From Gemmatimonadota bacterium (lineage in GTDB: Bacteria > Gemmatimonadota > Gemmatimonadetes > Longimicrobiales > Gaopeijiaceae), in contig JAPPGI010000201.1 in assembly GCA_028874985.1 (NCBI GenBank), forward strand, positions 1 to 56,607: DNA of 56,607 nucleotides. Reading direction: 5' to 3'. The translations under genes were made by a program, and so were the position numbers. Shown here piece after piece: positions 14,341 through 54,175 of the stretch. Position 1 is the stretch's first letter. Each line of letters starts with the position of its first letter. The notes beneath the pieces are model-generated. The model had not been told where the DNA came from. It made no database searches and worked only from the letters and a program-made list of their open reading frames with translations.

Positions 14341-15540
14341 TCAGCTGGGGGTTGTGGTGACAGGCCGGGGACGGCGTGAATCGTCGCACGAGCCGGGGCT
14401 CCAAGGAAGCACCCCGGGGATCGGGGCACGGGCGGTAGCCTCCACGAGCCCGCCGAAGTCCCCGGCCCGAAGGCGGAACCGCCCCGCCCGGGCGATCATG
14501 GCACCGTTGTCCATCGACAGCCGGGGAGATCCCGCGAACACGCGTCCCTCCGGCGAGATCCCGTCGCGGATTCGCGCCGTGAGGGCCCGGTTGGCGGCCA
14601 CCCCGCCGCTCACCAGCACCCGGTTGCATCCCGTGGCCGCGACCGCGGCGAGTGTCTTGCCGGCGAGGACGTCGACCACGGCCTCCTGGAACGAGGCGGC
14701 AAGGTGGGGGCGCTCCGCGGCCACGCGGGTCTCCCCCGCGGCGGACCCGGACCCCTCGGCGGCCACCCCCGCCGGAACCGGGCCCGGCGACTCTTCGCGC
14801 CCGAGGTCGGCCACCGCGCGGGCGACCGCCGTCTTGAGTCCCGAGAAGGAGAAGTCGAAGGCGCCCGCATTGCCGCCGCGGCCTCTCCGGGGACGCCCCT
14901 CTCCGCTTTTCGTGCGCGTGGTTCCCCTGGACAGCAGTGGCCGCGGGAACGCGTATCTGCGCGGGTCTCCCGACGCCGCGGCGGCTTCGATCGCCGGCCC
15001 GCCGGGATATGGCAGTCCCAGCATCCTCGCCACCTTGTCGAACGCTTCGCCCGCGGCATCGTCCCGCGTCTCGCCCAGGAGGAAGTAGCGACCCCACCGG
15101 GGAACCCACAGCAGCAGGGTATGCCCCCCCGACACGAGGAGCGCGACGAAGGGCGGCACGGCGTCGGGATCCTCCAGCAGGGGACCGAAGAGGTGGCCCT
15201 CCATGTGGTGGACCGGGACCAGCGGGATGCCGAGTGCGCAGGCCGCCGCCCGCGCCCAGGTCACGCCGACGAGCAGCGCGCCGATCAGCCCCGGACCCAC
15301 CGCCACCGCGATGGCGGCGAGGTCTCGCCTCCGGACGCCCGCCTCCCGCAGCGCCGCCCGGACGACGGGCTCGATGCGTCTGAGGTGGTCGCGGGCGGCC
15401 AGTTCCGGGATCACGCCACCGTACACCCGATGCACGTCCTGGGAGTGGATCACGAGACCCAGGATCGATCCACGCTCGTCGAGGACCGCCGCCGAGGTCT
15501 CGTCGCAGGTCGTCTCGATGCCGAGGATCAACCCGTTCAC
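14341..15540 (-). CDS. tsaD: tRNA N6-adenosine threonylcarbamoyltransferase TsaD
   Basis: TsaD transfers the threonylcarbamoyl group onto A37 of tRNAs that read ANN codons (t6A synthesis). The sequence begins NGLILGIETTCDETSAA, has the metal-binding VHHMEGHLF motif (HxxxH), the SGGHT nucleotide-binding loop and DNGAMIA near the C-terminus. Starting at the GTG at 15540 gives 399 residues; the frame is open well upstream but that stretch is a shadow of the next gene. The start codon overlaps the stop of the YbbR gene as GTGA (15540-15537), implying coupled translation. A poorly conserved Gly/Arg-rich insertion lies around residues 190-260, near KSGEGRPRRGRGGNAG, and may lengthen a surface loop. 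Confidence 0.95.
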   Translation of the reverse strand: MNGLILGIETTCDETSAAVLDERGSILGLVIHSQDVHRVYGGVIPELAARDHLRRIEPVVRAALREAGVRRRDLAAIAVAVGPGLIGALLVGVTWARAAACALGIPLVPVHHMEGHLFGPLLEDPDAVPPFVALLVSGGHTLLLWVPRWGRYFLLGETRDDAAGEAFDKVARMLGLPYPGGPAIEAAAASGDPRRYAFPRPLLSRGTTRTKSGEGRPRRGRGGNAGAFDFSFSGLKTAVARAVADLGREESPGPVPAGVAAEGSGSAAGETRVAAERPHLAASFQEAVVDVLAGKTLAAVAATGCNRVLVSGGVAANRALTARIRDGISPEGRVFAGSPRLSMDNGAMIARAGRFRLRAGDFGGLVEATARAPIPGVLPWSPGSCDDSRRPRPVTTTPS

Positions 15541-16496
15541 GGGACTTCGCCTGCGCGTACGGTAACCGAGTCCACCTCGACCGTCCCCACCACCCGCGCC
15601 GGGAGCCCGCCCAGCACCAACGGCACGCGAGCCAGGCCCTCCTGCGCCACCACCACCCGCACCGCCGCCGCTTCCGCCCCTATCCAAACACGGATTCCCG
15701 CAGTGTCCACCCGGTTCAGGACCTCCTCCGCTCCAAACAGCGTGACACCCACCCGGGCGGGATCCGGCTCCAGAGTCCCGTCCCCACCCCGGAACTCCAC
15801 GGGGAGCGGCGCGAGGACCCGGCTGCGCCTGGTCGCAACCTCCACGGCAAGCGTGGCCGTCGTCGGGTTCACCACGAGTCCGCCGAGCCCGGTGGTGTCG
15901 AGCGGTACCTCGAACCTTCCCGGGCCGGTGACGCGGCTCAGATCGAAGGGTTCCAGGAATACGGTCTCCAGTGCATCCACCTGCGACGCCGGGCCCCGCA
16001 CGCGGGTGAAGAGAAGGTTGGCGCGGGGTTCGCTCACCATGGCCAGCGAGTCCGGCAACTCACCCGTCAAACGTACCGAGACCGGTATCTCCTCCTCCTG
16101 GTTGCGCTCGAAGAGCAGGCGGACCGTGCTGGGCTGGAAGTTCTCGATGTCGACGCTGCTCCTGTCGATGTTCGTCACCCAGTCGTGGAGGAGGGTCAGC
16201 ACCGTATCCTCCTTCGCGACGGTGTCCACCCTTATGACGATGGCGGGACGGGACATCGCCACCCGGAGGATGTCGCCCACGGGGCCGGTCACGCTCATCT
16301 GCACGGAAGCCGGAGAGGGCGGCTGCCGCAGGAACCAGTCCCGGTGCACATGCTCCACGCGCACTTCGACGCCGGGGATGCTGAGGCGGTCGATACGGTC
16401 GTCGGTGAGTCGCATCGTCACCCAGAGCAGCACCGCCAGCGCCAGAGCGGTGATCTTGAGGCGCCAGTTGCGCACGAGGACACCCGGGAAGGACAT
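15537..16496 (-). CDS. YbbR-domain protein (CdaR-like)
   Basis: A short cytoplasmic N-terminus and one membrane helix (LKITALALAVLLWVTM, about residues 13-28) are followed by roughly 280 extracytoplasmic residues that look like tandem YbbR repeats, with recurrent V-x-V-x-G-P boundaries. In Firmicutes the YbbR protein CdaR regulates the membrane diadenylate cyclase CdaA, and the two genes are adjacent. No cyclase gene is next to this one; it lies between a thioredoxin-like gene and tsaD. The product is 319 residues from the ATG at 16496. I am fairly sure of the family and unsure of the partner. Confidence 0.8.
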   Translation of the reverse strand: MSFPGVLVRNWRLKITALALAVLLWVTMRLTDDRIDRLSIPGVEVRVEHVHRDWFLRQPPSPASVQMSVTGPVGDILRVAMSRPAIVIRVDTVAKEDTVLTLLHDWVTNIDRSSVDIENFQPSTVRLLFERNQEEEIPVSVRLTGELPDSLAMVSEPRANLLFTRVRGPASQVDALETVFLEPFDLSRVTGPGRFEVPLDTTGLGGLVVNPTTATLAVEVATRRSRVLAPLPVEFRGGDGTLEPDPARVGVTLFGAEEVLNRVDTAGIRVWIGAEAAAVRVVVAQEGLARVPLVLGGLPARVVGTVEVDSVTVRAGEVP

Positions 16497-35946: not shown

Positions 35947-36126
35947 GCTTGCAGGGGTGTCGATTTGCCCGTAGCATTGCAGGATGAGCGGGTCGGGTGG
36001 TGACCCGGCCCAGAGCGGGCGGCTCCGGTGGTGCGAATGAGGCGGATCGCGCCTCTCACCGGGTCGGGCCGGAAGTACCGGCCCCGTGACTGCCGGCTCG
36101 ACATCTTCAGGGGAGGGATGAGGAAA

Positions 36127-37944
36127 ATGAGGAAGCCCGCGGGCAGCAAGACACTCCCGATCACACTTTTGGCCGGTGCCGTGCTCCTTTGGTCCTGCGC
36201 CGATCTGCGCCCCGAAGCCGACCGAATTCCGACCCGGCTGGCAATTGTTCCCGATACCGGCCTCCTGACGGCGGGAACACCGACGAAGCTGAAGCTCGTC
36301 GTCGAGGACCAGCACGGCGAACCACTTCCGGTTCCCGGCTGGTCGCCTGTGCGATGGGGTGTGTTTCGGCCGGCGACCGGCGGCCATGTCGCGAAGATCA
36401 ACCAGGACGGAATGCTGACCGGGTTGCGCGGCGGCAGGACGACCGTCACGGCTCGCGTGAGCGGGCTGGAGGCGGAAGCGCGCTTTCGGGTGAATCCCGA
36501 ACGCTTGCGTCTGACTGCGTCGGCCATCTATCTGACCCAGGGGGCGCAGAATCGCCATGGCTCCGTTCGGCTGATCGCGGGCCGACCGGGGCTCCTCCGG
36601 ATCTTCGTCGTCGCAAACGAGATGAACTGGGGATTTGAGCCCCCCGCGGTTCAGGTCACGCTGCTACAGGGTAACGACGTGGTACTGGAGCGGCTCCTCC
36701 CGGGGAAGCCCGGGTCGATTCCAACCGGTTTCGACGAGTCGGACTTGCGTCTGTCCTTCAACGTAGAGGTTCCCGGGTCGGTCATTCAGCCCGGCCTCCG
36801 CATGGTGGTCGAGCTCGATCCGGAGGGCGTCGTGCCACTGGCCCCGGGAAGCCGGACCAGGTATCCGGAGACGGGCTCCACCGAACTTGTCGTCGTCAGA
36901 CCGCCGTTGTTCCGGCAGGTTTTCGTTCCGACCCTTTTCGGCCAATCGTCCGACCCGGCGGTCTTCGCCTGGCTGGACGGAATAGGTCCCGACAGCGACC
37001 AGATGCGCTACGCCAGGAATCTGTTGCCCGTATCGGAGATGGAGGTGGAGGTTCGCGATACCTTCCGACTGGGAAGCCTTTCGCTTTATGGCTGGCTCAA
37101 TGCGATTAGGGTGCTGCACGTCCTGGAGGGGCGGCGGGGCTACTACTACGGTGCGACCGGGCAGTTTGGTGGCGGGGTCGCCAACTTCGCGAGGCCGTGG
37201 AGCGTGGGTGCGGCCGACGCATGGGTCTACACCCATGAAACCGGACACAACATGAACCTCTATCACGCCAACTGCGGCGGCGCGGTGGGGCAGCACCCGA
37301 AATACCCGTACCCTGGAGGATCCATAGGTGTCTGGGGCTATGACGTCGAGCGCAAGAGGCTGTACGATCCGGCGGCGGCGAAGGACGTCATGAGTTACTG
37401 TCGAGGCCTCGCCTGGACGGGTGACTTCCAGTTCGATCTCGCGACCACCCATCGGCTCAGCGGAGATGGCGGGGTCGATCTGGAGGGGGGATCCGGCCCG
37501 GGCCGGGGGGAAGAGATGCTCGTGGTGTGGGGTTCGGTCCGGGACGGCGAGTTGACGCTGGATCCCGCCTTTGTGGTGGAAGGGCCGGTGGAGCTGCCGG
37601 AGGCGGACGGTCCCTACCGGGTCGAGGGGATCGGCGCGGATGGGGAGACCCGATTCTCCCTCTCGTTCTCGCCCACGCCGCTGGAGCACGGCGGAGGGAG
37701 CTTCGTCTACTTCGTTCCCTATGATGCCGAGTGGGCCTCCGCCCTCGATCGGATGGTACTGACCGGACCGGAGGGAGCATACACCATGACGCGCGACGGC
37801 GAGCCCGAGATGGCCGTGCTGACGGACCGCTCCACCGGACTGATCCAGGCCATCTTCCAGGACTGGGACGGGGGGCCGATCCCCGGCGAGGAGACCGCCG
37901 AGGTGACGACGACCAGGGGGATCCCGGCAGCCCGGTTGCGGTAG
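36127..37944 (+). CDS. Secreted lipoprotein metzincin-type zinc metalloprotease with N-terminal Ig-like domain
   Basis: The ATG at 36127 (GGAGG about 10 bases upstream) gives MRKPAGSKTLPITLLAGAVL and then LWSC, a lipoprotein signal; an ATG at 36118 is an alternative but too close to the ribosome-binding site. A bacterial Ig-like (Big_2-type) domain follows at about 30-125 (ending DGMLTGLRGGRTTVTARV). The catalytic domain carries HETGHNMNLYH (about residues 370-380) and the Met-turn VMSYC near 422. The middle and C-terminal parts align by eye with the LRR-protease at 336-2756, including the GGSIGVWGYD and LDRMVLTGPEGA blocks. They are paralogues with different N-terminal modules. The likely role is degrading an extracellular protein or glycoprotein; the substrate is unknown. 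Confidence 0.82.
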   Translation: MRKPAGSKTLPITLLAGAVLLWSCADLRPEADRIPTRLAIVPDTGLLTAGTPTKLKLVVEDQHGEPLPVPGWSPVRWGVFRPATGGHVAKINQDGMLTGLRGGRTTVTARVSGLEAEARFRVNPERLRLTASAIYLTQGAQNRHGSVRLIAGRPGLLRIFVVANEMNWGFEPPAVQVTLLQGNDVVLERLLPGKPGSIPTGFDESDLRLSFNVEVPGSVIQPGLRMVVELDPEGVVPLAPGSRTRYPETGSTELVVVRPPLFRQVFVPTLFGQSSDPAVFAWLDGIGPDSDQMRYARNLLPVSEMEVEVRDTFRLGSLSLYGWLNAIRVLHVLEGRRGYYYGATGQFGGGVANFARPWSVGAADAWVYTHETGHNMNLYHANCGGAVGQHPKYPYPGGSIGVWGYDVERKRLYDPAAAKDVMSYCRGLAWTGDFQFDLATTHRLSGDGGVDLEGGSGPGRGEEMLVVWGSVRDGELTLDPAFVVEGPVELPEADGPYRVEGIGADGETRFSLSFSPTPLEHGGGSFVYFVPYDAEWASALDRMVLTGPEGAYTMTRDGEPEMAVLTDRSTGLIQAIFQDWDGGPIPGEETAEVTTTRGIPAARLR

Positions 37945-44809: not shown

Positions 44810-47113
44810 TCAACCGGGTCGAAAGGTCCGCAGCCGATTCGCGTTGGCCACCACCGTGACCGAACTGAAGGCCATCGCCGCCCCGGCGATCATCGGCGAG
44901 AGGAGCAGGCCCAGAGACGGGTAGAGGGCGCCGGCCGCCACCGGAATGCCGACCACGTTGTAGGCGAAAGCCCCCACCAGGTTCTGGACGATGTTGCGGT
45001 GGGCGGCCCGCGAGATCTCCAGCAGGGTCTCGACGCCGCGGAGCGAGTCGCCGAGAAGCGCCACGTCCCCGGTCTGCCGGGCCACATCGGTACCGCCTCC
45101 CATCGCGACGCCGACATCGGCCGTCGCGAGGGCGGGTGCGTCGTTGATTCCGTCTCCGACCATCGCCACCACCCGTCCCAGCCCCCGCAGCGCCTCGATC
45201 TCGCGAGCCTTTCCGGCGGGGGACACCCGCGCCGACACGCGCCCGATGCCCGCCTGCCCGGCGATCCGGGCGGCCGCGGCCTCTTCGTCCCCCGTGAGCA
45301 TCATCACCTCGACGCCGCGCCGCCGGAGCCTCCCCACCACCTCCCGCGCCCCCGGGCGCAACGCGTCCGCCACACCGAACACACCCGCCGCCACCCCGTC
45401 CACGACCACCACCACCGGTGTCGCCCCCTCCGCGGCGGCCCGTTCGAGGTGCTCCGCCAGCGAGCGGGCATCCACGCCGGCGGCGGTCACGAACGAGGGC
45501 GACCCCACGAGCACGCGCCGCCCGGCCGCGCTCCCGGACGCCCCCCTCCCGGGATGCGCGGCAAAGTTCGCGACCTCCGGCCACGCCACCCCCCGCTCCC
45601 CCACGTACTGCACGATCGCACGCGCCGCCGGGTGCTCCGACGCCGCCTCCACGCTCGCCGCCGCCTGCAGGAACGCGGTTTCGGCGAAGTCGGCGGACGC
45701 TCCCGCGAAGGCGACCTGCGGCCTGCCCACCGTCAGCGTCCCGGTCTTGTCCAGCACGACCGTGTCCACCCGGCGCGCCCGTTGCAGCGCGGTCCCGTCA
45801 CGGATCAGCACCCCATGCGCGGCCGCCTTGCCGATCGCGATCATCACCGAGATGGGCGTGGCCAGTCCCAGCGCGCACGGGCAGGCGATCACCAGCACCG
45901 CCACCGCGGTCACGACGGCGAGGTTCATCCGCGGCTCCGGCCCTGCCAGCAGCCAGAAACAGAAGGTCAGCAACGCGACCAGAACCACGGCCGGCACGAA
46001 ATGGCCGGCCACCACGTCGACGGTTCTCTGGATCGGGGGCTTGGTTCCCTGGGCGCGCCGCACCATCTCGACGATGCGCGCGAGCACCGTTTCCGAACCG
46101 ACCCGCGTGGTCTCTACGGTGAGCGCGCCGGTGCCGTTGACCGTACCGCCCACCACCGCGTCACCGGGCGACTTTGCGACCGGCAGGCTCTCGCCGGTGA
46201 GCATCGACTCGTCCACCTCGCTCTCCCCCCGCCGGACCCGCCCGTCCAGGGGGATGCGCGCACCGGGGCGCACCAGCAACAGATCCCCCCGGGCGACCTC
46301 GGCCACCGGCACCGTCTCGATCCCGTCTCCGGTCGCCCGGTCGGCGGTTTCGGGAGTCAGGTCGAAGAGGGCCCGCAGCGCCCGCACGGTGCGTTCCCTC
46401 GCGCGGGTCTCGACCACCTGGCCCAGAACCACCAGGGTGATCACGACCGCTACCGCCTCGTAGAAGGGCCGGGCGCTCCCCTCGGGAAAGAGTCCGGGCG
46501 CCGTCACCGCGGCCGTCGAGTACAGCCAGGCCGCCCCCGTTCCAAGCGCGACCAGCGTGTTCATGTCGGCCGCGCCCCGCCTGGCCGCGGCCCAGCCACC
46601 CTCGAAGAACCCCCGCCCCGTATGCAGGAGGATCGGCATCGTGAGCACGCCCGACACCCACCAGAGCACACGGCGCGTCTCCTCCGCGAGCATCGGCAAT
46701 CCCGGGACCATCTCCCAGTGGCCGATCAGCACGACCGGGAGTCCGCACGCCACCCCCAACCGGAATCGCCTCATCAGCACGGCCCGCTCCTCGTCCCGGG
46801 CCTCGTCCCGTTCGCGGAGGCCATCCGGAGCCGTCCCGGCGCCGGCCAGCACTTCGGCTCCGTAGCCGACCGCCTCGACGGCGCCCACCAGCGCACCCGG
46901 ATCCGGCCCCTGCGGTGCGAGCCGCACCCTGGCCAGCTCCTCCACGAGGCTCACACTGGCCCCGGTCACGCCTTCGGTGCCGCCCAGCGCCTTCTCGATG
47001 GACCTCACGCACGCGGCGCAGTGCATGCCCCGGATGCCGAGCGTCACCTCCGTGGCGGCTCCGCCAGGGGTTCCGGCCGCCTCTCCCCGACCCCCGGCGG
47101 CCGTGTCGTTCAC
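44810..47113 (-). CDS. copA: Copper-translocating P1B-type ATPase (CopA-like)
   Basis: One N-terminal heavy-metal-associated domain ([18 protein letters not shown], about residues 27-90) is followed by eight membrane helices. The CPC metal-transport motif ([16 protein letters not shown]), phosphorylation motif [12 protein letters not shown], the SEHP motif and [16 protein letters not shown] are all present. CPC with a CxxC HMA domain indicates export of Cu(I) or Ag(I) from the cytoplasm. The GTG at 47113 overlaps the holA stop as GTGA and gives 767 residues. No copper chaperone or CueR-like regulator is adjacent. Confidence 0.94.
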
Positions 47114-47943
47114 CCGGATCGTCTCCGGCCCCGCACCATCAGCGCCAACAGCCACTCCTCCATGAGGACTTCGCCGGGGATCGCGCTGGCCTTGAGGAGT
47201 TGGTCCAACCGGCGCAGACCCCGGACCGCTTCCGCCAGTTCGGCCCGGCTCCAGCGCCGCGCCTGCCCCACGATCCGCCGTGCGAGGAAACGCTGGTAGG
47301 GCGGCAGCACCGCCTGTACGCCGCGCACACCGCCCTCGATGGCAACCCCGATGCGGAGCAGTTGGGTGGAGAGCCCGATAACCAGCCCGACAGCCGACTC
47401 TCCCTGCTCACGCAGGACGGGGAGAGTCCGGACCGCGTCCCTGATCCTCCGGTTGCCCACCAGGTCGAACCAGGCCCAGCGGTCCTGGCGGGGCAGGCGC
47501 AGTCCACCCCTCCGCACGGCCTCCACATCCACGACGGCCCCTTCGCCCACCATTTCGGCAAGCTTGCGCACCTCCTGGGTTAGCATCCCCAGCTCCGTCC
47601 CCGCCGCTCCGGCCAGCGCCCGCGCGGCTTCGATCTCCACCGTAACCCCGAGTTCCTCCCGGGCCCACGACACCAGCCACCCGGGCGCCTCGTCCGTGGA
47701 GACGGGTTTGAACTCGATCGCCGTGGCAACCCCGGCGAGGTCCTTGTAGAACCTGGCCCGGGATCTGGGCGGAACGGTGGCCTGCAGGATGAGGACCAGC
47801 CCCGGAGGCGGACGGCGGGCGGCGTCCAGGACGATCCGGCGCGCCTTGGGGCTTCCCGCCAGCGCTTCCGCCTCCTTCACGTGCACGACACGCCAGGTAG
47901 CCATCATGGGTGGCGTGGCGATCACCGACGCCAACCGCTCCAC
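47110..47943 (-). CDS. holA: DNA polymerase III subunit delta (HolA), true N-terminus lies further upstream
   Basis: HolA opens the sliding clamp within the clamp loader. The sequence from 47943 contains the AAA+ region ([24 protein letters not shown]) and the C-terminal collar domain ([20 protein letters not shown]). The frame continues without stop to about 48099 and that part is coding: it reads FFLHGGDEYRKSAAAAELL, which is the conserved delta N-terminus. However no ATG, GTG or TTG occurs between the anti-sigma stop (48096-48098) and the GTG at 47943. A GTA at 48099 overlapping that stop, or an ATC at 48090, are candidate rare starts; a 7-base C-run at 48069-48075 is a possible error site but no frame change supplies a start. 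Confidence 0.8.
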
Positions 47944-48095
47944 GGTCGTGGCGGAAGCCTCGATGCGATCGACGTTGAAATCAGCCGTTGCCGGATCGGC
48001 GTAGCGTTCCAGAAGCTCCGCGGCCGCGGCCGACTTGCGGTATTCGTCACCGCCGTGGAGGAAGAAGACCCCCCCGTCCCGGGCGGCGATCGGCG

Positions 48096-48665
48096 CTACT
48101 CCGGTTCCGGGTCCGCCTCGGATTCCTGGCCGCCGCCCGGTTCCGTCTCGAAGAGCATGGACCGGAAGATCTCCCCCAGATCACTCTGCCCGAACTCGCG
48201 CGTGCCGGTTTCGGACGGAGAAATGGCGGGGACGACCGGCGCAGGCGGAGCTCCGGCCACCACCGGCGGCATGCTCACTTCGGGCGTATGCCGGGAGAGG
48301 AAGGGACTCCAGGCGACCGCGGCCAGAAGCAGGACCACCAGCGCGGCCGCCGCCAGGGTCACTCCCGAACCGGCGGTGCCAAGGGCCAGGGACTCTCTCT
48401 CGAAAGCGGTGGCCAGGCGTCGCATGTCGCCCACGCTCAAACGGCGGCGGGGCGCACACTGCGGAGTCGTGCGGAGCACGTCGACGCCCTTGCGGATCAC
48501 GCGGTCGTAGCGCCTGCAGGGACTACACTCCGCGATATGGCCGATGAACCGTGAACGGCCCTGGTCGTCAAGGCGGCCATCGCGATAGTCCGAATACCGG
48601 TCGAGGAAAGCTCGACAGTCTCCCGCAGGGTCCTGATATGAGATCTTGTTCTTCGCCATACCCAT
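48096..48665 (-). CDS. Zinc-finger anti-sigma factor
   Basis: The N-terminal cytoplasmic part holds a zf-HC2-type zinc site (an early Cys in GDCRAFLDRYSDY, then GHIAECSPCRRY giving HxxxCxxC). One membrane helix follows (VTLAAAALVVLLLAAVAW, about residues 110-127), with an extracytoplasmic tail of ~65 residues rich in Pro and acidic residues. This is the architecture of an anti-sigma factor that holds an ECF sigma at the membrane and releases it on envelope stress or redox change. The ECF sigma gene lies upstream, but 231 bases away. Start is ATG 48665 or, six bases on, ATG 48659. Confidence 0.82.
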   Translation of the reverse strand: MGMAKNKISYQDPAGDCRAFLDRYSDYRDGRLDDQGRSRFIGHIAECSPCRRYDRVIRKGVDVLRTTPQCAPRRRLSVGDMRRLATAFERESLALGTAGSGVTLAAAALVVLLLAAVAWSPFLSRHTPEVSMPPVVAGAPPAPVVPAISPSETGTREFGQSDLGEIFRSMLFETEPGGGQESEADPEPE

Positions 48666-48896: not shown

Positions 48897-49553
48897 TCAG
48901 TCGATCATCGGCGCGATGATGCGGGCGAAGGCATTGCGGGCTCGGTTCAAGCGGCTCTTCACGGTGCCCAGGTTGCAGCCCGTGATCTCGGCGATCTCCT
49001 CGTAGCTCTTGCCGTGCAGTTCGCGGAGAACGAAGACGGTCCGGTGGTGTTCGGGAAGCTGTTCGACGGCTTCGTTCACCTTCTCGCGCAGGAACCGTCT
49101 CCGGTAGAGGTCGTCGGGGCGCGTCTTCGGATCCTCCCACTCCAGAGGCCGAAAGTCCGCATCCCAGTTCTTCATGATCGTCTGGAAGAGCACGAGCGGG
49201 TTCCGCGAGCGGTTCCGCAGTTCGTTCTTGGCCAGATTCCCGGCGATCGTGTAGATCCAGGTGGAGAACTTCCTCGTCTGGTCGAACCGGTGCAGATGCC
49301 GGTAGACGCGAACGAAGGTCTCCTGAACCAGGTCCTCCGCCTGCTCCCGGTCCCCCACCGTGCGCGCGATGAAGTTCTGGAGGCGCTTGTCGTAGCGGTT
49401 GACGATCTCCGCGAAGGCCCTGTCGTCTCCTTCGAGGAATCGCTGTACGACCTCGCTGTCGCTCAAGGCCGCGATCCTCCGCCTGGCCTGTTTGGCCGTG
49501 TATCCCCCCCCGGCACCTCCACCACTTGCTTTGAGAAGCTTGCCGCGGGACAT
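48897..49553 (-). CDS. ECF-type RNA polymerase sigma factor
   Basis: The 218-residue protein has region 2 (RAFAEIVNRYDKRLQNFIAR, then EDLVQETFVRVYRHL for core and -10 binding) and region 4 (EQLPEHHRTVFVLREL and YEEIAEITGCNLGTVKSRL as helix-turn-helix), with no region 1 or 3. That is the two-domain layout of group-4 (ECF) sigma factors, RpoE/SigW-like. A Gly-rich N-terminal extension of about 30 residues is unusual. The ATG at 49553 follows GGAG after 6-7 bases. It is partnered with the membrane anti-sigma downstream. Its regulon is not shown by the sequence. Confidence 0.93.
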   Translation of the reverse strand: MSRGKLLKASGGGAGGGYTAKQARRRIAALSDSEVVQRFLEGDDRAFAEIVNRYDKRLQNFIARTVGDREQAEDLVQETFVRVYRHLHRFDQTRKFSTWIYTIAGNLAKNELRNRSRNPLVLFQTIMKNWDADFRPLEWEDPKTRPDDLYRRRFLREKVNEAVEQLPEHHRTVFVLRELHGKSYEEIAEITGCNLGTVKSRLNRARNAFARIIAPMID

Positions 49554-51679: not shown

Positions 51680-52938
51680 GGCGGTCCCGCCGGCAGATAC
51701 CGCACCACCGCCCGGTTCCCGCCGTGCAGGTATCCCCGCGCCCACTCCCGCACCTGCTCCACCGTCACGCTCCGCAGACGCCTCAGATCGTCGTTGAGGC
51801 GCCGCGCATCTCCGAAGTGGGTCGCGTACATCGACAGGAGGTCCGCGCGCCACTCCAACCGCTGCAGTGCCCTGAGGTTGCGAGTCTCGGCACCGACGAC
51901 AGCGCGTTCGATCTCGTCGCCCGTGAGGTCGCCGGCCGCATCGAGTGCCTCCACCAGGGCCCCTTCCAACCGGTCGATGGGGGTATCGGGGAAGCCAGTG
52001 GCGACGGCCAGGAAGAACGCGGCGCCGGTGGTCAGCGGAACGAGATGGCAGGTGGCCGACTTGGCGGCCCGCTGCCGCACGAGACGGTCGTAGAGGCGCG
52101 ACGAGCGTCCCGTGCCGAGGCAGTGGGAAACGACCTCGCCGGGATAGAACGCATCGGTCGTGAACGGAGGCACCCGGGCGGCCGCGTACACCCTGGGCAG
52201 GGGAACCGCCGCGTGGACGTCGCCGCGCAGCGTCTCGCCGGTGGTGAACGGGATGCGGGCCGTGCCGGGGACCGGGGGCGGGTCGGGGCCGGGGGGAATG
52301 GCCCCGAAGTACCGTTCGACGCGGTCGAGCGCGTGGCCCGGGTCGCAGTCGCCGCATACGGTGATGACGGCGTTGTTGGGCAGGTAGTAGGCGGCGAAGA
52401 AGGCGTGGATGTCGTCCAGGGTGGCCGCGGCGATATCCTCCATCGAACCGATCACTGTGTGGTGGTAGGGGTGGCTCGCCGGAAAGAGGAGGGACTGGAT
52501 GCGCTCGTCCCAGTCGCCGTACGGCTGGTTGTCGTAGCGCTCGCGGCGTTCGTTCATCACCACCTGGCGCTGGTTTTCGAGCTTCTCGGCGGTCATCGCC
52601 GGCAGCATCCATCCCATCCGGTCCGACTCCAGCCAGAGCGCAAGGTCGAGGTGGTGGGACGGCAGCGTCTCGTAGTAGTTGGTGCGGTCGAACCAGGTGG
52701 TGGCGTTGGCGGTGCCCCCCACCCGCTCGATGTGGTGGAAGTGGCCGTTTCGCGGAACGTTGGCCGAGCCCTGGAACATCATGTGCTCGAAGATGTGGGC
52801 GAACCCCGTCCTGCCCGGGGCCTCGTTGCGGGAACCGACACGGTACCAGAGGTTGACCCCCACGACAGGGGTCGTCGCGTCCGGTGCCAGAACCACCCTG
52901 AGACCGTTGTCGAGCACGTGCTCCTGGACTGTGATCAT
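51676..52938 (-). CDS. M16-family zinc peptidase (active subunit)
   Basis: The inverted zinc motif HIFEH (in FAHIFEHMMFQG, His48, Glu51, His52) is present, with the distal Glu in VVMNERRERYDN. The N-terminus MITVQEHVLDNGLRVVLAPD is normal for M16 peptidases. It is 420 residues from the ATG at 52938, which has GGAGAA directly upstream; the frame is open to 53064 but that extension looks non-coding. It starts a two-gene set with the inactive partner, like bacterial processing-peptidase homologues that clear peptides. There is no clear signal peptide. Confidence 0.92.
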   Translation of the reverse strand: MITVQEHVLDNGLRVVLAPDATTPVVGVNLWYRVGSRNEAPGRTGFAHIFEHMMFQGSANVPRNGHFHHIERVGGTANATTWFDRTNYYETLPSHHLDLALWLESDRMGWMLPAMTAEKLENQRQVVMNERRERYDNQPYGDWDERIQSLLFPASHPYHHTVIGSMEDIAAATLDDIHAFFAAYYLPNNAVITVCGDCDPGHALDRVERYFGAIPPGPDPPPVPGTARIPFTTGETLRGDVHAAVPLPRVYAAARVPPFTTDAFYPGEVVSHCLGTGRSSRLYDRLVRQRAAKSATCHLVPLTTGAAFFLAVATGFPDTPIDRLEGALVEALDAAGDLTGDEIERAVVGAETRNLRALQRLEWRADLLSMYATHFGDARRLNDDLRRLRSVTVEQVREWARGYLHGGNRAVVRYLPAGPP

Positions 52939-53040
52939 TTCTCCGCGGCCATTCCTCCGTATCCCAGGCTGCACCATCTTTGCTGCGACAACAGTCTCGC
53001 GAACCGCGGGACGGCACAAGTCACCCCTGCGGATTCCCGA

Positions 53041-53047
53041 AGGAGGT
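53041..53047 (+). promoter_or_regulatory. Shine-Dalgarno fixing the start of the aminotransferase
   Basis: A perfect AGGAGGT lies 6 bases before the GTG at 53054, which decides this start over the several upstream candidates in the open frame. Confidence 0.8.
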
Positions 53048-53053
53048 ATCCAC

Positions 53054-54175
53054 GTGGGATTCATCCCCTTTCAGATGGAGCGGTGGCAGTCGACCTACGA
53101 ACATCGCGTCCGGTACAACCTGTCCGAGAGCGGTGTCCACCCCCTCACGGTGGGGGAGCTCCTCTCCCTCGCCGGCGGGTCGGCGGACCTCTCGTCGGTA
53201 CGGCTCGGGTACAGTCAGTCCAACGGCACGGACGAGTTGCGGTCGCTGATCGCGTCGCTGCACCCCGGTGCCTCGGACCGCTCGGTGGTCGTGACCATCG
53301 GCGGGGCCGAAGCGAATTTCGTGGCCTTCTGGGAACTGGGGGACAGCCACAGGCCCGCGGCGGTCATGTTGCCCAACTACATGCAGGTGCCGGGCCTCAT
53401 CCGGAACTCGGCCGGCGGGTTCGTCCCCTTCCGCCTCCGGGAAGAGAGCGGGTGGCGCCCCGATCTGGACGAACTGGCGTCGGCCCTTGCGGCCGGGGCG
53501 GGGTTCATCCTGGTGACCAACCCCAACAATCCCACCGGCATGGCCCTCACCGCAGCCGAGATGGACGAGATCGTCTCGCTCGCCGACCGGCACGGTGCCT
53601 GGATCCTCGCGGACGAGGTGTACCGGGGAGCCGAGGTGGGCGACGATCCCACTCCGAGCTTCTGGGGACGGTACGACAAGGTCCTGGTGACCAACTCCCT
53701 CTCCAAGGCGTACGGACTACCCGGTGTGAGGCTCGGCTGGGTGGTGGGGCCGGAGGGGATGGCCGAGCGCCTGTGGGCCCGCACCGACTACACGACCATC
53801 GCTCCGGCGTCAGTGTCCGACGCGCTCGCGACCATCGCGCTCTCGCCCGCGGCAAGGCCGAGGATCCTCGCGCGGACCCGGCGCATCATCCGCCGCAACC
53901 TCGACGTCCTGGCGGAGTGGGTGGAATCCCGCAACGGCGTCTTCAGCTTCACCGCCCCCGACGCCGGCGCAATCTGCATGGTACGGTATCACGCTCCCAT
54001 CGCCTCGCTCGAACTGGCCGAACGGTTGCGCCGGGACCACAGTCTGCTCGTGGTCCCGGGTGCCCACTTCGGCGTCGAGGGCACCATGCGCATAGGCTTC
54101 GGTCCGCCCGAGGATGAACTGGTGCAGGCGCTCCAGCGGCTGGGATCGGTCTTCGCGACGGCGGGAGCCGCGTGA
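53054..54175 (+). CDS. PLP-dependent aminotransferase, class I/II
   Basis: The fold-type I enzyme shows VTNPNNPTGMAL, the PLP-binding ILADEVYRGAEV, the Schiff-base lysine in TNSLSKAYGLPGVRLGW and the substrate arginine in GTMRIGFGPP. The N-terminus (GFIPFQMERWQSTYEHRV) resembles aminotransferases that start with an MERW-like motif and often act on amino acids in secondary pathways, but the specificity cannot be read. From the GTG at 53054 it is 373 residues. It is transcribed alone, divergent from the M16 genes with a 115-base gap, and convergent with the SRAP gene (7 bases). Confidence 0.9.
   Translation: MGFIPFQMERWQSTYEHRVRYNLSESGVHPLTVGELLSLAGGSADLSSVRLGYSQSNGTDELRSLIASLHPGASDRSVVVTIGGAEANFVAFWELGDSHRPAAVMLPNYMQVPGLIRNSAGGFVPFRLREESGWRPDLDELASALAAGAGFILVTNPNNPTGMALTAAEMDEIVSLADRHGAWILADEVYRGAEVGDDPTPSFWGRYDKVLVTNSLSKAYGLPGVRLGWVVGPEGMAERLWARTDYTTIAPASVSDALATIALSPAARPRILARTRRIIRRNLDVLAEWVESRNGVFSFTAPDAGAICMVRYHAPIASLELAERLRRDHSLLVVPGAHFGVEGTMRIGFGPPEDELVQALQRLGSVFATAGAA

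Follow-up and report, generated by a model that had tools for sequence, protein, structure and literature searches.

A probable ATC start codon in holA of a Gemmatimonadota bacterium and apparent rare holA starts elsewhere in the Longimicrobiales

The closest described counterpart of the locus reported here is infC, which starts at AUU, AUC or AUA, and whose start codon in E. coli is reportedly autoregulatory through IF3. AUC initiates poorly in E. coli, and the coupling of neighbouring genes through overlapping start and stop codons is known in the forms ATGA and GTGA. As for rare starts of annotated bacterial genes, CUG is put at about 0.024% of bacterial starts in excerpts of two sources (PMC11497404, PMC9845219) and its expression in E. 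coli at 0.86% of that of AUG in the first of them; an excerpt of PMC6397469 names AUC among the rare known bacterial starts, and a published reconstruction based on triplets of related genomes, 36 in all, gives only two changes from AUG to CUG, one from GUG to CUG, one from UUG to CUG and two switches to AUU (PMC5622118). The holA gene described below resembles each of these systems. As in infC, a putative AUH start follows a Shine-Dalgarno motif, and infC of the same genome carries ATC. With the rare CUG starts holA shares a near-cognate start; unlike them, the rare codon turns up repeatedly in a single orthologous gene, and seven species of one clade have CTG in the same position. As in coupling by start/stop overlap, the proposed start stands at the upstream stop, as CTGA in the genus g6 and as TAG-5 nt-ATC at this locus, although the start codon would not be ATG, GTG or TTG and the coupling would be a predicted one.

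Rare start codons as such are known; what stands out here is their apparent recurrence in one replication gene. Among the titles and abstract openings of the literature searched, none dealt with rare holA starts; an arXiv survey by Gvozdjak and Samanta from 2020 reportedly covers genes preferring non-AUG starts and may list holA. Weak initiation at CUG or AUC is awkward for a replication gene, and one that repeatedly adopts ATC or CTG offers a natural test of the tolerance for weak starts. Gene finders by default accept only ATG, GTG and TTG, and therefore holA would be truncated or missed in such genomes.

The window, by which we mean the whole stretch of DNA analysed, comprises 56,607 nt of contig JAPPGI010000201.1 (assembly GCA_028874985.1). 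On its minus strand the genes follow one another in the order ECF sigma factor (48897-49553; Sigma70_r2, Sigma70_r4_2), zf-HC2 anti-sigma-like protein (48096-48659; MAKNKIS...DPEPE, 187 aa; PF13490), holA and heavy-metal P-type ATPase. Read from the ATC proposed below, holA would occupy 47110-48090 of the minus strand and encode a DNA polymerase III delta subunit of 326 aa, plus stop. The equivalog model TIGR01128 matches with 145 bits against a cut-off of 80, over positions 1-316 of its 316 and from the Val before the conserved core onwards, whereas the Pfam gathering scores are missed (PF06144, DNA_pol3_delta, 20.5 bits vs. 21; PF21694, DNA_pol3_delta_C, 21.8 vs. 27). Protein identity is 65-85% to 12 congener or near-genus sequences of the alignment and 39-53% to the remaining 18. 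Modelled by AlphaFold, the ATC product reaches a mean pLDDT of 92.5, with its first strand at residues 7-13, and the best Foldseek match is the B. subtilis delta subunit YqeN (3zh9; E 2.2e-16), followed by clamp-loader chains; given a query-normalised TM-score of 0.51 and an rmsd of 9.2 against 3zh9, the domain arrangement differs. The assignment to the delta subunit is decided by the whole-length equivalog model and the fold, despite the Pfam scores below cut-off.

A first-pass annotation of this DNA had claimed that holA reads through its conserved N-terminus without ATG, GTG or TTG, and we confirm the absence of an ordinary start before the conserved domain. The frame is open on the minus strand from 48180, next to a bounding upstream stop at 48181, down to TGA at 47112-47110, and its core motif FFLHGGDEYRK starts at 48066. 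Ordinary start codons are lacking from 48180 down to a GTG at 47941-47943, which is residue 80 of the open frame; in the ATC product it would be residue 50 and thus lie too deep within the domain. CTG is likewise absent upstream of the core, although a CTG does occur within it, and in the part of the holA frame that lies upstream of the anti-sigma TAG there is only an ATC at -19 (in codons relative to the core), with AGGA directly against it. In a comparison of the starts of window genes with three relatives, read by eye, holA was the one gene found whose first ordinary start falls inside the conserved domain while that of the relatives lies before it; the frames 14344-16059 and 36004-37941 have no start in common with relative G021, yet have ordinary starts before the conserved stretch. 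A scan for promoters and terminators found nothing.

A homopolymer indel was considered as the cause of the missing start and ruled out. The run of seven C, which had earlier been said not to rescue a start, is G7 on the coding strand (GACGGGGGGGTC) and encodes D-G-G-V; its length equals that in relatives, and no indel is implied, because the encoded length is the same and the residues are nearly the same.

The surroundings of holA were compared in a congener set of 23 genomes of the genus, the named relatives being Gemmatimonadota/Longimicrobiales metagenome assemblies. holA was detected in 22 of the 23, the congener G018 giving no match with the window protein and only a weak one with the family model. 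Two further assemblies, G058 and G099, likewise gave no holA match with the window protein, though all three are otherwise fairly complete. An anti-sigma homologue, 40-58% identical, lies upstream of holA in 20 of 21 congeners with holA, and none was found at this place in G010 (L020). In 19 of 21 congeners the core is preceded by an ordinary start at a distance of 14, 15 or 17 codons; G022 (L010) has a GTG at -8, with the anti-sigma TGA just upstream, 2 nt before the GTG, and G008 (L019) has GTG at -23 and -27 and CTG at -14. The nearest relative, the sister L002, has ATG at -15, so the ATC is not common to both. From the anti-sigma stop to the core there are 32 nt here and 29 in G022, compared to 50-197 in the other 19 congeners measured. 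The junction is 26 nt shorter than in G021, and the stretch holding the start of the relatives is missing, the holA frame being homologous to theirs back to about -11. Ordinary starts in relatives, which the first-pass annotation had named as the observation that would tell against it, do exist, but the part of the junction in which they lie is absent from this genome; several further species of the order lack them as well.

On these grounds we regard it as probable that holA is functional, that its ordinary start was lost as the junction with the anti-sigma gene shrank, and that translation most likely begins at the ATC at 48088-48090. The product would be (f)Met-AARDGGVFFLHGGDEYRK..., 326 residues in length. 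Start signals would be provided by a putative Shine-Dalgarno motif, GGAG (48099-48102, minus strand), 8 nt before the ATC, and by the ribosome that has just terminated at the anti-sigma TAG (48096-48098) 5 nt upstream, that is, by termination-reinitiation. The codon would be read by the initiator tRNA, coupling to anti-sigma termination may help holA initiation, and the level of delta would be low but sufficient. The ATC at -8 occupies the exact codon of the GTG of G022, both N-termini having the form x-A-A-x-D-G-G-V. The two genomes fall into different clades of the tree, and for this reason the shared codon position looks like convergence rather than inheritance. An ATC at -8 is seen in this genome only, the near-cognate codon not being conserved among relatives, and it counts against the ATC model that L010, its closest analogue, has no Shine-Dalgarno motif by scan and belongs to another clade. 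Of 20000 shuffles of the stretch, 307 gave an ATC, ATT or ATA in frame and preceded by a motif of this kind, and an in-frame ATH so placed also occurs in 5 of 113 holA loci having an ordinary start. RNA folding of the start region was unremarkable (z 0.67).

Use of ATC by this organism was assessed on infC as a positive control. In 49 of 50 infC loci of the order ATC (42), ATA (5) or ATT (2) is found 4-8 codons ahead of the RVN motif; L213, one of three infC matches in G077, is the exception. infC thus differs from holA, in which ATC is scattered. The control is imperfect, because at 21 of the 50 loci an ordinary codon also lies in frame at a distance of 2-30 codons upstream of the motif, the remaining 29 having none. 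In the genome studied here, infC reads AAGGAG-AATCTCAAG-ATC-GCA, its GGAG being at 9 nt; here too a GTG is found 33 codons upstream of the ATC, and another 7 codons downstream. Since infC carries ATC at the start place in this genome, the same ribosomes probably initiate at ATC elsewhere. The negative control, ruvB, has an ordinary start in all 25 loci in which the motif was found, 5 of 30 loci having been dropped for want of it. Several genomes of the order contain two or more infC-type matches (loci L213-L262).

The strongest competitor of the ATC start is that an ordinary start is real and was lost in assembly, about 26 nt of the junction having been collapsed or wrongly joined. The assembly consists of 230 contigs (completeness 95.41%, contamination 1.19%), the relatives named here are themselves metagenome assemblies, and both the short stop-to-core distance, otherwise seen only in L010, and the ATG of the sister would fit such a loss. 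We nevertheless consider it unlikely, as both genes read cleanly to the junction, the anti-sigma protein ending in ...ADPEPE near the ...DPD/DPN of relatives and holA being in frame with theirs to about -11. Among the conserved frames of the window, two alone (52679-54172 and 210-2753) aligned in several pieces; moreover, the junction of G022 is similarly short and other species also lack ordinary starts.

Translation might also begin, by reinitiation, at the GTA at 48097-48099 that overlaps the anti-sigma TAG. Both this codon and the ATC had been pointed out earlier as extremely rare starts; both are present, and we share that judgement of their rarity. Comparable overlaps, GTGA and CTGA, are seen in genus g6, and one paper, to go by its title, reportedly concerns a GUA initiation codon in recJ. 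We hold a GTA start to be very unlikely all the same: it has no Shine-Dalgarno match of at least 4 bases at 3-12 nt, an ordinary start at -11 is found in none of the congeners, and the excerpt of PMC6397469 does not list GUA with the rare natural starts. The earlier reading stands as far as a coding N-terminus without an ordinary start is concerned, and is refined in that ATC is better placed than GTA.

That the conserved N-terminus is coding, also claimed before, is borne out by dN/dS upstream of the first ordinary start. Over the 41 codons from the start of the core to that GTG, dN/dS is 0.11-0.19 in comparison with the five nearest relatives and 0.26-0.43 with three that are more distant, and by this measure the holA N-terminus is under purifying selection. 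On the holA branch leading to this genome there are 24 synonymous vs. 12 nonsynonymous changes, of which 4 and 2, respectively, fall in the 41 codons; this branch-count test is weak, because the counts are small and the sister branch L002, whose holA has ATG, shows 13 synonymous vs. 20 nonsynonymous changes.

These results bear on the proposal that holA is dying or truncated, with the GTG at 47941-47943 alone in use or the gene not made at all. That GTG is the first ordinary start, and congener G018, with its missing match to the window protein and weak match to the family model, might be taken as a parallel. The delta subunit is, however, essential in studied bacteria, the holA protein has one match in its own genome, and the codons before the GTG are under purifying selection. 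According to the AlphaFold model, the GTG product would lose the strand 7-13, which the ATC product keeps, together with helices 16-30 and 33-39 and the strand 40-44, and we see scarcely any probability in this proposal. Least credible of all, delta as an anti-sigma fusion made by -1 ribosomal frameshifting before the TAG can be dismissed: the open holA frame does extend into the anti-sigma gene for 28 codons, but no slippery heptamer was seen by eye before the TAG, and the relative frame of the two genes varies among congeners (0, 1, 2), so there is no conserved shift.

The wider occurrence of rare holA starts was surveyed in 122 distinct holA loci of the order, with one assembly per species; 5 of 22 additional loci entered the survey and 17 were omitted as apparent duplicates, judged by eye. 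Nine of the 122 loci lack an ATG, GTG or TTG in the interval 4-30 codons ahead of the core. A contig end accounts for one, and the other eight belong to this genome (ATC), G042 (ATC) and six species of genus g6 (CTG). In G042 (L088) the sequence ATC ATC stands after GGAGG, at 3 and 6 nt, with an in-frame stop at -24 and the N-terminus I-I-R-Y-E-A-L. In the six g6 loci (L028, L121, L131, L133, L134 and L138) CTG is found at -17, the usual start place, fused to the upstream TGA as CTGA; in L028 this TGA ends the anti-sigma gene. Three CTG species have an in-frame stop at -19, so that no start can lie upstream of it. Within the same genus, G095 and G094, which bring the CTG species to eight, have the same CTGA together with a GTG at -11, G089 has CTGA at -15 together with a TTG at -8, and four species have GTGA at -17 instead of CTGA. 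The CTGA loci of holA number nine in all, the six listed above plus L124, L127 and L132.

Seven CTG species come out as a single clade of the tree (100/100), G090 and G089 are each joined to GTG species, and G042 is placed in another family; 4 of the 122 loci were omitted from it (L023, at a contig end; L153, with ambiguous residues; its relative L164; and one more by the length/X filter). These placements suggest no fewer than three separate origins of rare holA starts, and assembly errors could hardly account for a CTG clade that is consistent across seven species. The scan detected no Shine-Dalgarno motif before the nine g6 CTG codons, nor before the ordinary holA starts of L003, L004, L006, L010, L122, L125 and L130. 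Lacking such a motif, the g6 cases would differ in the detail of their mechanism from the ATC here, and we infer that their CTG starts may depend on coupling to the upstream stop.

Outside the order, an ordinary holA start is present in 39 of 39 loci examined (19 + 20), in one of them as ATG at -32. These loci come from a sample of 39 of 86 genomes, 11 of 30 loci of one set having fallen inside the order and not being used. A farther-reaching proposal is that holA in Longimicrobiales is, like infC, under a start-codon throttle, in which CTG or ATC repeatedly replaces the ordinary start, delta is kept scarce and its translation is sensitive to IF3. We consider this quite improbable; if it were true, replication capacity would be tied to the translation machinery.

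At its 3' end, the holA stop overlaps a GTG (GTGA, 47110-47113) that is in frame with the heavy-metal ATPase gene downstream; this overlap suggests that translation is coupled along the genes of this strand. Elsewhere in the window, the conserved plus-strand frame 52679-54172 aligns in two pieces with both relatives, possibly as a result of an indel or a low-complexity gap, and the frame 210-2753 aligns in six pieces with G006 and in one with G021, at 33-34% identity.
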